Below are positions 14,237 through 36,104 of a stretch of DNA of 41,027 nucleotides, piece after piece. A program made the translations under genes and the position numbers. The notes beneath the pieces are model-generated. The model did not search any database and was not told where the DNA came from. It was given only the letters and a program-made list of their open reading frames with translations. The DNA comes from Bryobacterales bacterium (GTDB taxonomy: Bacteria > Acidobacteriota > Terriglobia > Bryobacterales > Bryobacteraceae), in contig DAHVTI010000579.1 of assembly GCA_027324255.1 (NCBI GenBank), forward strand, positions 1 to 41,027, read 5' to 3'. Every line of letters starts with the position of its first letter. Position 1 is the stretch's first letter.

Positions 14237-16492
14237 CTACAGGTTCCACCAGTACGTCCACTTCAGCACCAGGGCGCGGTTCTTCACCGAGAACAGCCCC
14301 GGCACGTTTTGCCCCGGCTGCAGGTATTCGGGCATATAGTTGTCCGTCCAGACCAGGAACATGTCGGAGGCGGGCTTGTAGCGCCACTGCACGCGGGAGT
14401 TGATATTCAGATTCCGCTGCTGCTCGTTGTACTGAACGAATGTCGTGAAGTAGAGCGTGTTGGTCAGCGTGACGTCGAAGCGCGGGCCCACCAACCAGAA
14501 CTTCGTGTGCCCCCACGGCTCGCGCAGCCGCAGGTCGTTGTAGCTGGCGGAGCCGGCCAGGCTGACGAAGGGCTGGAAGCGATAGCCCAGCGTGCCCGTC
14601 AGGTTCAGCCGCGTTCCGTCGGCATAATAGCCGCCGTACTGCGTCGAAAACCCGTAGCGGAACACGCTCTGCGGCTTCGAGTCGAACTTGGTGCTCCAAC
14701 TCTTCCAGCGATGAATGCTGCCCGTGCCCAGTTTCTCGCGGCCCGTGTTGGTCGGGTCGAAAGGCTGCAGCAGCCGCACGTAGTCCGCGCTGGCAGTGGC
14801 CGAGAAGACGTCCAGGTTCCGCAGCGTCACCGTGTAGCCCAGCGAGGTTTCATAGTCGCTGAGCTTCCCCGACCAGTCGAAGAAGTTGCTGCTGGTGAGT
14901 GTGGGGCCGTGGCTCAGGATGGCGCCGCCCTCCGGCAGGAACGTATGGCCGATGGTGGTCAGGACGCGGCGATAGCCGCGCCGCGGCACGTAGCCCACCT
15001 CGGCGCTGTAGTTCGGATCCACGTTTTCCATCTGCCCGTTGAGCGTCCAGCGGCGGCTGCTGTACTGCAGATGCCCCGCATAGACGGAGCCGCCGTCCTG
15101 GCTGCCGGATGAGAACGACTTCAGGTAGAGCAGCTTGCCGGTCCACAGGTTGGTGGAGGACGCCAGGTTGTACTCCGCGCCCAGGTTCCGGTTGTAGCGC
15201 GATCGCGCCGCCGGCAGGCCCGCCGGCTGGTAGTTGAAGGACTCCTTGTCCACCAGCATGACGCCGATATTCGAGCGCGAAAACACGCGGCGCTGCAACG
15301 CGAAGACGGAGAAATTCTCGGCCGGCAAGCCCTGTTCGTCCACCGCCCCGGTCTGCATGTCCATCACGCCCAGGCGCCAGTCCTTGTTCAGCTTTCCGCT
15401 GAGGCGCGTCCCGAAACGGATGGGCACTCCGCCCAGGCCGATGCGCCGGCTGAAGAACGGACGGATGGTGGCATACCCGAAGTTCGCGAATTGGTCGCCA
15501 TTTTCCAGGAAAAACTGCCGTTTTTCTGGAAAGAACAGCTCGTAGCGGTCGAGATTGGTCACTTGCTGATCGACGTCCACCTGCGAGAAATCGGGATTCA
15601 CGGTCAGGTCGAGGTTTAGGGCCGGGCCGAGGGCCACCTTCGCGTCGAGTCCGATGTCCCGCCGGGTGAGCGCCGGCGTGCCGGCCGCATGGTCCCTGCT
15701 GACGCCGCCGAGCGCATACGGGATCAGCGAGACGTTGGGGCCTGGGGAAGGGGGCGGCTCGTCCCACAACAGCACTCCGGCGTGGGCCAGCGACGCGGTG
15801 GGGAAGTTGCGCGGGATGGGAGTCCACGAGGACTTCTCCGTGGTCTTGAGGTCCAGGCGGCTGAAGTTGACGCCCCAGCGCGCAATGCCTTTCTTGTAGC
15901 GGATGCTCTTGAACGGGATGGCGATCTCCAACTCGTAGCGGTCCGCGTACTTTTTCACGGCGGAGGTCCACTTGTTGTCCCAACTCAGGTTCGCCTTTCC
16001 CCCTTCGTACAGCAGGCCGTCCCACTGCGCGCCCTCGGCATTTACGCCAAAGGTGAACCCGTTGGTCTGGTCGTCGAAGGTGTCGAGGAAGAAGATGAAG
16101 TTGTCGTTGTTGCCGAATGCCCAGTCCCGTTTCAGCGACTCGACCATATAGGGGCCTTGCACGTCGCCGTGATAGCAGATGGCGCTGAGGTACAGCGCAC
16201 GGTCGTCGTACGTCATGCGCACATCCGTGCGCACCTTGGCGCGGTCCGTATCCATGGGCAGCACCATCCAGAAGTCGCTCACCACCTCGGCCGAGTCCCA
16301 GGCGCGTTCGTGCGCGTTGCCGTCGATGACGACCGGCGACGTCGCTCGATGAATGTGCAACTGGTACTCTTCGTTCTGCTTGTCTGCCGCCGCGTTCCTC
16401 GCGCCTGGAAACAGGCACGCCCATAGCGCCATCGCCAGAAAGGCTGCGCATGCGTTCGGCCGGGGCCTCCGTCTGGATTTGCTCGGTGTCAA
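14237..16492 (-). CDS. Outer-membrane protein with CBM9-like domain and beta-barrel (DUF5916)
   Basis: About 750 residues. After a signal-like stretch (FLAMALWACLFPGARNAAA) comes a CBM9-like domain: ATSPVVIDGNAHERAWDSAE, RTDVRMTYDDRALYLSAICY, and DNFIFFLDTFDDQTNGFTFG. The rest alternates in the manner of beta strands and contains DUF5916 landmarks such as LDLTVNPDFSQVDVDQQVTN and ELFFPEKRQFFLENGDQF, ending in a strand-like KWTYWWNL with an aromatic-rich terminus typical of outer-membrane barrels. Its role is unknown; carbohydrate binding at the surface is a family-level guess. The start is unsure: TTG 16492 gives a charged n-region before the hydrophobic core and is my choice, while ATG 16432 and ATG 16600 are alternatives. 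It is transcribed towards the catabolic run, and its promoter region is shared with the divergent aminotransferase. Confidence 0.82.
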   Translation of the reverse strand: MTPSKSRRRPRPNACAAFLAMALWACLFPGARNAAADKQNEEYQLHIHRATSPVVIDGNAHERAWDSAEVVSDFWMVLPMDTDRAKVRTDVRMTYDDRALYLSAICYHGDVQGPYMVESLKRDWAFGNNDNFIFFLDTFDDQTNGFTFGVNAEGAQWDGLLYEGGKANLSWDNKWTSAVKKYADRYELEIAIPFKSIRYKKGIARWGVNFSRLDLKTTEKSSWTPIPRNFPTASLAHAGVLLWDEPPPSPGPNVSLIPYALGGVSRDHAAGTPALTRRDIGLDAKVALGPALNLDLTVNPDFSQVDVDQQVTNLDRYELFFPEKRQFFLENGDQFANFGYATIRPFFSRRIGLGGVPIRFGTRLSGKLNKDWRLGVMDMQTGAVDEQGLPAENFSVFALQRRVFSRSNIGVMLVDKESFNYQPAGLPAARSRYNRNLGAEYNLASSTNLWTGKLLYLKSFSSGSQDGGSVYAGHLQYSSRRWTLNGQMENVDPNYSAEVGYVPRRGYRRVLTTIGHTFLPEGGAILSHGPTLTSSNFFDWSGKLSDYETSLGYTVTLRNLDVFSATASADYVRLLQPFDPTNTGREKLGTGSIHRWKSWSTKFDSKPQSVFRYGFSTQYGGYYADGTRLNLTGTLGYRFQPFVSLAGSASYNDLRLREPWGHTKFWLVGPRFDVTLTNTLYFTTFVQYNEQQRNLNINSRVQWRYKPASDMFLVWTDNYMPEYLQPGQNVPGLFSVKNRALVLKWTYWWNL

Positions 16493-33845: not shown

Positions 33846-34490
33846 ATGAGATGCGCAACTCTTCTTCTGACGGCGGCGCTGATGTCGGGGGGCCTGGCGC
33901 AGGGGCAGTCGTGGACGCGGGACTACTACCGCAACCACGTGACGGCGGCGGCCGGATTCGCGATGCCGGGGCGTGACCTGAAGACGTACTACCAGAACGC
34001 CTTCGCGTGGAGTTTCGGCTACGGCTACCGGCCGGTGAAGTACGTGCAGGTGGACCTGGGGCTGGACGGCTCCTACAACGCGGCGCGGGTGAAGGACTAC
34101 ATTGAGAGTCCGGGTTGGGGGTACCTGCGGATCCGGGACTTCCAGACGTTTCTGCCGCTGGGCGGGCGCGTGGTGGCGCCACTGGCGAAGGGGCGGGTGG
34201 AGTTCTATGGCGGCGGCGGAGCGGCGTACGCGCGGACGGCGGAGTTTTTGCGGCAGCCGAGCGACTGGGTCAGGATCGAATGTCCGGACTGCGTGGCGCG
34301 GGACGGGTGGGGCTACTACGCGCTGCTGGGCGGGAGCGTGGCGCTGGACCGGGCGCAGCATTTCCGGCTGGGGGTGACGACGCGGGTGTACCGCATGGAC
34401 ACGTCGGGCCCGCCGGTGGGGGCGACGCCGGCGGTGAACACGACGGATCAGTGGGTGAACACGTATTTCGGGCTGACGTTCAGCTTCTGA
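33846..34490 (+). CDS. Small outer-membrane beta-barrel protein
   Basis: A 214-residue protein with a signal peptide (MRCATLLLTAALMSGGLAQG). The mature part alternates in the manner of an eight-stranded OmpA/OmpX-like barrel: HVTAAAGFAMPGRDLKTYY, AFAWSFGYGYRPVKYVQVDL, FLPLGGRVVAPLAKGRVEFY, GGGAAYARTAEFL, GWGYYALLGGSVALDRAQHF, RLGVTTRVYRMD, and a last strand NTYFGLTFSF ending in Phe, as barrel-assembly signals do. Two cysteines in RIECPDCVARDG may form a loop disulfide. The function is unknown. The stop shares a base with a possible in-frame ATG of the methyltransferase at 34490. Confidence 0.75.
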   Translation: MRCATLLLTAALMSGGLAQGQSWTRDYYRNHVTAAAGFAMPGRDLKTYYQNAFAWSFGYGYRPVKYVQVDLGLDGSYNAARVKDYIESPGWGYLRIRDFQTFLPLGGRVVAPLAKGRVEFYGGGGAAYARTAEFLRQPSDWVRIECPDCVARDGWGYYALLGGSVALDRAQHFRLGVTTRVYRMDTSGPPVGATPAVNTTDQWVNTYFGLTFSF

Positions 34491-34519: not shown

Positions 34520-35434
34520 ATGAACGCGGGTGAGATGCTGGCGCGGGCCGGCGAGTTCCGGGAGAAGCTGGAGGGGGTGAAAAGCGCGGCGCCGGAGGTG
34601 CTGTGGTACCCCTACGATTCGCTGACGAACTTCGTGCACCTCGAAAAGCTGCTGGGGGCGCAGCCGCGGAACCTGTTCGACCTGCTGCCGAACGGCCGGG
34701 TGCTGGACGTGGGAACGGGCGACGGGGACGTGGCGTTCTTCCTGGAGTCACTGGGCTATGAAGTGGAAGCGGTGGACCTGCCGGCGAGTAACCACAGCGC
34801 GCTGACGGGGTTCAAGCGGCTGCAGGCGGAGCTGGGCTCGAAGGTGAAGCTGCACGAGCGGGACATCGACCGGCAGTTCACGCTGGAGGGCGAGCCGTAC
34901 GGACTGGCGCTGAGCCTGGGGCTGCTGTACCACCTGAAGAACCCGTTCTTCTATCTCGAGGAGCTGTCGCGGCACGCCTACTACTGCCTGGCGAGCTCGA
35001 AGATCGCCGATATTCTCGAGGAAGGCGGCGAGCGGGACGCGCGGGAGACGCCGCTGGCCTACCTGCTGGAATCGGACGAGCTGAACGAAGACGATTCGAA
35101 CTTCTGGGTGTTTACGGAGAGTTGCCTCAAGCGGCTATTCCGGAGGGCGGGGTGGACGGTGGTGGGGACGCTGCGGGTGGAGCGCACGGGAGTGGCGCGG
35201 GTGAACAGCGCGACGGACGACGCGCGGCTGTTCGCGCTGCTGGCGAGCCGGCGCCTGCCGGCGGCGGTGGTACAGGCCGAGGGGTTTTACGAGCGCGAAG
35301 GGGAGGGCTGGTGGTGGACGGCGCCGGAGTTCGCGGTGACGGTGCCGCTGGCGGGGGAGGAGACGCGCTGGATCCAGGTGGAAGGCTACGTGGCGGAGGC
35401 GTCGCTGCGTGGCGGGCCGAACGGGCTGAGATGA
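34520..35434 (+). CDS. Class I SAM-dependent methyltransferase, interrupted by an in-frame TGA
   Basis: A 304-residue product up to a TGA at 35432-35434. The SAM-binding motif I is RVLDVGTGDGDVAFFLESLG (Asp63-Gly69 region), followed by EVEAVDLPASNHS, LHERDIDRQF and LALSLGLLYHLKNPFFYLEE, a string seen in CmoB-like/DUF1698-type methyltransferases. The C-terminal quarter reads as a beta-rich accessory domain: GEGWWWTAPEFAVTVPLA and IQVEGYVAEASLRGGPNGLR. That domain continues in the same frame after the TGA (see the next entry). ATG 34520 follows TTGGGAG and is preferred to ATG 34490. Substrate unknown; glycan- or polysaccharide-modifying roles fit the accessory domain, but this is a guess. Confidence 0.8.
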   Translation: MNAGEMLARAGEFREKLEGVKSAAPEVLWYPYDSLTNFVHLEKLLGAQPRNLFDLLPNGRVLDVGTGDGDVAFFLESLGYEVEAVDLPASNHSALTGFKRLQAELGSKVKLHERDIDRQFTLEGEPYGLALSLGLLYHLKNPFFYLEELSRHAYYCLASSKIADILEEGGERDARETPLAYLLESDELNEDDSNFWVFTESCLKRLFRRAGWTVVGTLRVERTGVARVNSATDDARLFALLASRRLPAAVVQAEGFYEREGEGWWWTAPEFAVTVPLAGEETRWIQVEGYVAEASLRGGPNGLR

Positions 35435-35626
35435 CGTGTGGGCGGCGGGGCGTGGCAGCGGCAGGAGATGCGGCAGGCGGGGCCGGCGGTGTTCCGGTTC
35501 GAATGGCCTTCCAGGAGGCCGGAGGGCGAGGTGCGGGTGGAGTTCCGGGTGGAGCGCGAAGCGGAGCTGCCGGCGGACGAGGACCGGCCCATGGGGCTGA
35601 TCGTGAAAGACGTGGAGCTGCGGTAG
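35435..35626 (+). pseudogene. In-frame continuation of the methyltransferase beyond the TGA
   Basis: The 63 codons after the TGA at 35432 are in the same frame as the methyltransferase and end at a TAG. They read RVGGGAWQRQEM, AGPAVFRFEWPSRRPEGEVR, VEFRVEREAELPADEDRP, then MGLIVKDVELR. The last string, with GLIV followed by a short hydrophobic strand, is the usual ending of the beta-sandwich domain whose first part lies before the stop (GPNGLR). No ribosome-binding site precedes the GTG at 35438, so a separate gene is unlikely. Either a nonsense mutation, a sequencing error, or stop-codon readthrough joins the two parts. Confidence 0.65.
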
Positions 35627-35633
35627 CTGCGGG

Positions 35634-36104
35634 CTACTTGATTTCCTTGCTCTGGGCGGTGGCGGGCTCGGCGCCCCAGTTCTCGCGGATGACGAGGGTC
35701 TGGTCAGAGAAAAATGTGCGGCGGCCGGTGCTGTTGAAGACCTTGGGGACGGCGGTGACGGTGTAGCCTTCCTTGGTGCCGGTGACGGTGAAGATGTAGC
35801 CGGTTTTTTCGCCGAGGGCGAGGTCGCCGGGGATGAGGTCGGAGGCCGCGGGTCCGGCGGCGCCGGAGGCGGGCGGACCGAGCTGGGCGAGGTTTTCGGC
35901 GAACTTCTGGAACTGGCTCATGTACTGGGTCTGCGCGGTGTGGACGGTGTTGATCTGGCGGATGGCGGCCATCTCCTGGGAGTGCATGCGGGCGTTGTTG
36001 AGCTTGGGAGCGGCGATGGCGGCGATCACCAGAATGATGGCGATGACGATGAGGAGCTCAATCAGGGAGAAGCCGGAGCGGCGGCGGTTGTTTTGGTGGC
36101 GCAT
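35634..36104 (-). CDS. Type IV pilin-like / type II secretion pseudopilin protein
   Basis: A 156-residue prepilin. The N-terminal MRHQNNRRRSGFSLIELLIV is a class III leader: a basic stretch, the prepilin-peptidase site Gly|Phe, then Ser-Leu-Ile-Glu with the conserved Glu at +5, followed by a hydrophobic helix (LLIVIAIILVIAAIAAPKL). The globular part has LNNARMHSQEMAAIRQINTV, TQYMSQFQKFAENLAQLG and a beta C-terminus (YTVTAVPKVFNSTGRRTFF). The helix-then-sheet layout fits PilA/GspG-type pilins. No assembly genes are nearby, so it is an isolated pilin gene, as is common for acidobacteria. It ends 8 bases from the stop of the methyltransferase extension, with which it converges. Confidence 0.88.
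   Translation of the reverse strand: MRHQNNRRRSGFSLIELLIVIAIILVIAAIAAPKLNNARMHSQEMAAIRQINTVHTAQTQYMSQFQKFAENLAQLGPPASGAAGPAASDLIPGDLALGEKTGYIFTVTGTKEGYTVTAVPKVFNSTGRRTFFSDQTLVIRENWGAEPATAQSKEIK

Follow-up and report, generated by a model that had tools for sequence, protein, structure and literature searches.

Among the stop codons of E. coli, TGA is the leakiest and is mostly read as tryptophan, and also as cysteine, according to the available excerpt of PMC11126739, in which a T directly after the stop tightens termination, a G loosens it and C is not singled out. For selenocysteine (Sec) sites, the available portion of PMC1088965 gives a rule of at least two cysteine-containing homologues together with more than 50% TGA/Cys pairs, and the available portion of PMC12013277 describes some genuine SECIS elements as departing from the consensus. 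SelD served as the positive control for the locus studied here, its gene carrying an in-frame TGA in all nine searched genomes of the genus (L089-L097; L094, on contig C126, in assembly G000) within the motif KAAG-stop-ASKLSP. We take this motif to be the Sec site of SelD. The hairpin that follows it, GUCCAAA-GGU-UUUGGAC, is identical in eight of the nine genomes, has an unbroken stem of 6-8 bp and places its GGU loop at nucleotide 24 from the U of UGA in eight genomes; in G001 a base change widens the loop without shifting it.

The window, i.e., the whole stretch of DNA analysed, is the entire contig C313 (41027 bases) of assembly G000, which comprises 605 contigs and 6.17 Mb with a completeness of 97.5% and a contamination of 1.2%. 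On its plus strand, the frame of a methyltransferase gene opens with an ATG at 34520, runs through 304 sense codons into a TGA at 35432-35434 (codon 305, next base C) and continues for 63 in-frame sense codons (35435-35623) to a TAG at 35624-35626, the two sides of the TGA together amounting to 367 sense residues. We regard this TAG as the gene's original end; it lies 63 residues past codon 305, compared with 54-80 in 34 homologues. Overall, we consider it very probable that the TGA is a chance event, either a recent nonsense mutation or an assembly error, and not a case of novel decoding. For the upstream neighbour (33846-34490) Pfam gives no family, while the downstream neighbour (35634-36104) was read as pilin-like judging by the N-terminus of its translation. 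Elsewhere in the window, ARAGORN called a 93-base tRNA-Ala with the anticodon AGC (14938-15030), which may be a false call; this anticodon is odd for a bacterium.

The gene product is, as predicted from its sequence, a class I SAM-dependent methyltransferase. Pfam Methyltransf_23 (PF13489) matched residues 52-215 at 39.7 bits (cut-off 27), whether or not the tail encoded after the stop was included, and Foldseek agreed with this assignment of the first part (residues 1-245; 34520-35254). The top PDB match was EvdMO1 (5t38, 6ec3; E 2.7e-10), followed by other SAM-binding enzymes; all 50 rows listed had E values of at most 3.2e-8 and included MtfA, TehB, CmoB and NRMT1, which are presumably all methyltransferases. 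In the AlphaFold2 model (alignment of seven sequences; mean pLDDT 80, pTM 0.70) the methyltransferase core is followed by an all-beta part with strands at 252-260, 264-277, 283-291, 301-307, 313-317, 321-329, 336-344 and 361-363, so that codon 305 falls within the predicted strand 301-307. The first half of this C-terminal domain (residues 246-304; 35255-35431) was delimited by these strands and the orthologue alignment, and the second half, the 63 codons after the stop, by tblastn and selection (see below). No Pfam match above cut-off was found for the all-beta domain or for the tail by itself, and all NCBIfam matches of the methyltransferase stayed below their cut-offs. Of the 257 genomes of the order, 85 gave a match at E 1e-30, which makes the gene accessory.

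The nearest orthologues, in G007 (L004; 75% identity) and G004 (L005; 68%), are both open through the site. They belong to the same genus, are of equal length and share both flanking genes with the window, but carry a cysteine sense codon at position 305 where the window has TGA. A tblastn search with the 63 residues after the stop recovered these orthologues (58% identity and E 4.6e-19 in G007, 47% and E 1.8e-14 in G004), each time adjoining the match of the first part of the protein, while another close relative, G008, has no more than residues 1-48, next to the end of a contig. From 98 non-window matches listed at order level, 35 homologues were aligned, leaving out G016 and G044, in which the C-terminal domain was not found, and G003 because of a frame change; by record title, full-length relatives come from Bryobacterales and Acidobacteria MAGs. 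In 34 of the 35 the column of codon 305 holds a residue and is followed by 54-80 more (the remaining one, G183, has its own TAA upstream of the column), and these tails indicate that the 63 residues after the stop are, beyond chance, the normal C-terminal end of the protein. The residues in the column are alanine in 20 homologues, cysteine in three (G007, G004 and G006), isoleucine and valine in three each, glycine in two, and threonine, methionine and phenylalanine in one each; TGA occupies it in none of these 34 sequences from other species. The earlier note was thus right about the position of the frame and its in-frame interruption, which we re-read at the same coordinates, and its view that the 63 codons read as the end of the same beta-rich domain is borne out by tblastn and the 34 homologues. 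Homologues that stop at the same place and lack the tail, which would have spoken against that view, were absent, none of the 35 ending at this column, and close relatives do not share the TGA, cysteine standing in its place in G007 and G004. Homologues that consist of the core without the C-terminal domain do exist in other genera and phyla (L019 in G016 and L021 in G044, as well as L042-L058 from Saccharopolyspora, Verrucomicrobia and one proteobacterial MAG, these by the extent of the match alone, to residue 241-272), and those whose ends were read finish near residue 242-250, not 304.

Selection on the tail was compared between the window and G007 by NG86. The dN/dS ratio came to 0.20 in the core, 0.40 in residues 246-304 and 0.33 in residues 306-368, the last in a test of low power since 62 codons of a fast-evolving domain were compared. 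With G004 as outgroup, four private amino-acid changes after the stop were assigned to the window and six to G007. As far as these data show, constraint on the tail resembles that before the stop, and there is no trace of a long unconstrained period. The lack of decay implies a recent or artefactual stop; such a lack is, however, predicted alike by a recent stop, a sequence error and functional readthrough.

Other interrupted genes were sought in 585 kb of G000 (the window, up to 20 kb from each of 60 contigs, i.e., every tenth, and five further stretches) with a coding model seeded with the window genes. The screen gave 25 places where a coding frame resumes past a stop, among them the TGA of the window and a TAG that interrupts the frame of an amino-acid permease (L120:8156, G000:C55), where AA_permease_2 spans the stop. 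By eye, most of the 25 looked like the next gene with its own start; Pfam was run on three of them in addition to the window case. L121 was rejected as an interrupted gene, since different Pfam families flank its stop and point to two genes, and for the candidate L122 the Pfam search returned no family. An in-frame TGA also lies within the ATPase domain of an ABC transporter (L110:2135, G000:C452:11634), a case that the screen passed over although its sequence was among the material covered, which shows that the listing is incomplete; in G000, this was the one ABC_tran match of 54 with an in-frame TGA, the other 53 having no internal stop. The same screen listed 12 candidate places in a 405 kb sample of G004. 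Six further copies of the methyltransferase gene carry a single lesion, namely a TAA in L208 (G183) and frame changes in L020 (G003), L217 (G001), L218 (the second copy of G017), L220 (G212) and L221 (G221); two of the six lesions (G183, G003) lie within the C-terminal domain. No rate can be derived from these loci because they were chosen for their broken-looking rows, about a dozen being inspected. The inspected copies of G100, G235 and G247 showed no lesion; rows of G100 and G235 had been flagged with stops in the order-wide listing, but their core matches are free of stops and end at 242 and 249, respectively.

Genes for selenocysteine insertion are common in the genus. A tRNA-Sec above cut-off was found in eight of the nine genomes, G000 included, and all eight were called tRNA-SeC with the anticodon TCA; in G003 (L067, G003:C23) the best match of the tRNA-Sec search is a tRNA-Ser and nothing exceeds the cut-off. 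That genome, which is 84% complete, has SelA, SelB and SelD with an in-frame TGA, yet no tRNA-Sec over cut-off. SelA exceeded the cut-off in all nine genomes and SelB in seven, the exceptions being G007 and G000. In G000, a match to the C-terminal part of SelB (29 bits, below cut-off) lies in an open frame that starts at a contig start (L111, G000:C544), and from its position selB seems to be split by the contig end. Among 14 control genomes, matches above cut-off numbered five for tRNA-Sec and two each for SelB, SelA and SelD. Formate dehydrogenase, taken as a second Sec control, had no match above cut-off in the nine genomes and no TGA among the matches listed. The tRNA-Sec family cut-off was also exceeded by an unusually long, 92-base tRNA-Cys (GCA) at L068:1501-1592 (G005:C1).

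Against this background, we considered whether codon 305 is itself a selenocysteine codon, its UGA being read by SelB and tRNA-Sec by means of a downstream hairpin. The genome of G000 has tRNA-Sec, SelA, SelD with its in-frame TGA and, on our reading, a C-terminal portion of SelB. In a genus with selenocysteine genes, a TGA that faces cysteine, as this one does in G007, G004 and G006, is classically the mark of a Sec codon and counts against a chance lesion. So does the best SECIS-like candidate past the stop, a weak hairpin with the loop GGAGA (35458-35474) that in isolation is nearly as stable as the true SelD element (-7.3 vs -7.4 kcal/mol). However, cysteine fills the column in just three of 34 homologues and alanine in 20, TGA appears there in none of the other sequences examined, and a cysteine opposite a TGA is unsurprising, given that cysteine codons make up 25% of the usage-weighted sense codons one step from TGA. 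Set beside the rule in the available portion of PMC1088965, the column offers three cysteine homologues but falls short on the share of TGA/Cys pairs, these being three of 34. The hairpin also differs from the SelD element of the genus in spacing, stem and loop, its loop lying at nucleotide 33 and its stem being interrupted by a mismatch. Of 2320 codons in seven window genes, 47% matched or bettered its energy and 45% that of the SelD element; with the loop limited to nucleotides 22-26 the values were 53% for the methyltransferase site and 18% for SelD, and the region folds around the stop gave z values of -0.1 to -1.4. Overall, no hairpin right after the UGA was better than the codon background or SelD-like, and the GGAGA hairpin was judged a chance structure. 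Since energy fails to separate SelD from the background, the verdict rests on spacing, stem, loop and the conservation of the column; given the atypical elements described in the available portion of PMC12013277, a missing typical hairpin is no proof against Sec. With machinery, homologue column, hairpin background and the SelD control taken together, we judged selenocysteine at codon 305 to be very unlikely. Somewhat less improbable, if still a slim prospect, is a readthrough or selenocysteine site peculiar to this lineage, which would have been acquired after the split from G007 and would yield low or selenium-dependent amounts of the full-length enzyme.

A leaky or regulated TGA that yields two useful enzymes, one short and one long, would fit a tail that appears constrained and the status of TGA as the leakiest stop of E. 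coli in the available excerpt of PMC11126739, and the existence of core-only homologues indicates that the core can stand alone. To this extent the undecayed tail counts against a chance lesion, functional readthrough predicting the same. Yet none of the 35 aligned homologues has a stop at the column, no recoding element near the stop was better than background, and the shorter product would break off within strand 301-307, whereas the core-only homologues whose ends were read finish near 242-250. The earlier note had regarded TGAC as a context of weak termination; the TGAC is real but not special, as it closes 54 of the 215 predicted genes that end in TGA, and a C after the stop is not singled out in the available excerpt of PMC11126739. 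Readthrough of this kind is therefore very improbable, and the regulated form that the earlier note had proposed has no positive evidence, with an unconserved TGA, a common context, no recoding element above background and a short form that cuts a strand. Two separate chains that reassemble, the second starting from the GTG at 35438, were likewise considered very unlikely: this GTG, one codon past the stop, does open a 62-aa ORF, but a break here is seen in none of the 35 aligned homologues, which leaves a split gene unsupported, and the position is a valine codon in G004 (GTG) and G007 (GTC), so that the GTG needs no special role. A general decoding of TGA as an amino acid in this organism was ruled out, and we give it next to no credence. 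The ABC transporter ATPase is a second gene with an in-frame TGA, but TGA is the commonest predicted stop, used by 215 of the 394 genes predicted in the G000 sample, a TAG interruption is present too, and 53 of the 54 ABC_tran matches lack an internal stop. Within the reading that we favour, a base-calling, assembly or strain-mixing error, with the TGA absent from the organism and the real gene intact, is a serious candidate whose chances fall somewhat short of even. It would agree with the fragmented assembly (605 contigs), with the further in-frame stops, a TAG and a TGA, elsewhere in G000 and with the normal constraint on the tail, while the high completeness (97.5%) and low contamination (1.2%) speak against it and real nonsense mutations would look the same. 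Codons 304-306 all end in A or T, the sole such run in a gene in which 9% of codons do so; about 0.29 runs of three per gene are expected by chance from this 9%, which makes the run weak evidence. Similarly, the arginine codons on either side of the TGA are both rare (AGA 2.6% and CGT 4.4% of arginine codons), a weak hint at a local mutation cluster or a base-calling problem.

Of the three options in the earlier note, nonsense mutation and assembly error thus fit the private stop, the undecayed tail and the other interrupted genes, and regulated readthrough finds no positive support. A stop private to the window, homologues open through the site and a tail without decay are the pattern of a recent nonsense lesion. 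On this preferred reading, an accessory gene for a two-domain SAM-dependent methyltransferase has acquired a single recent nonsense lesion halfway through the C-terminal beta domain, and translation of the assembled sequence would halt after residue 304. The methyltransferase core would stay whole, while the last domain would lose its final four to five strands and probably misfold. Low basal misreading of UGA would probably still give traces of the full-length protein, with no sign of control. We infer that the stop serves no function and impairs the protein by truncating it.

In itself the case is of minor importance, since draft genomes ordinarily contain interrupted accessory genes. It does carry a caution, in that a TGA facing cysteine in a genome with selenocysteine genes mimics a new selenoprotein until many homologues and the hairpin background have been checked. 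Were readthrough true after all, it would represent a bacterial domain switched by a stop codon. Compared to SelD (L094), the site is similar in that its frame holds a TGA, its genome has selenocysteine genes and its nearest relatives have cysteine, but it has no conserved cysteine column and no matching hairpin, and no second TGA-bearing member was seen. The protein shares the SAM-dependent methyltransferase fold of EvdMO1, its best Foldseek match, but at 11-18% identity and a TM-score of 0.35-0.40 over the query, and it adds to the Methyltransf_23 class a C-terminal all-beta domain for which Pfam has no match above cut-off. Similar to the interrupted genes of other draft genomes, the window gene carries one lesion in a preserved frame, and nothing was found that distinguishes it from them.
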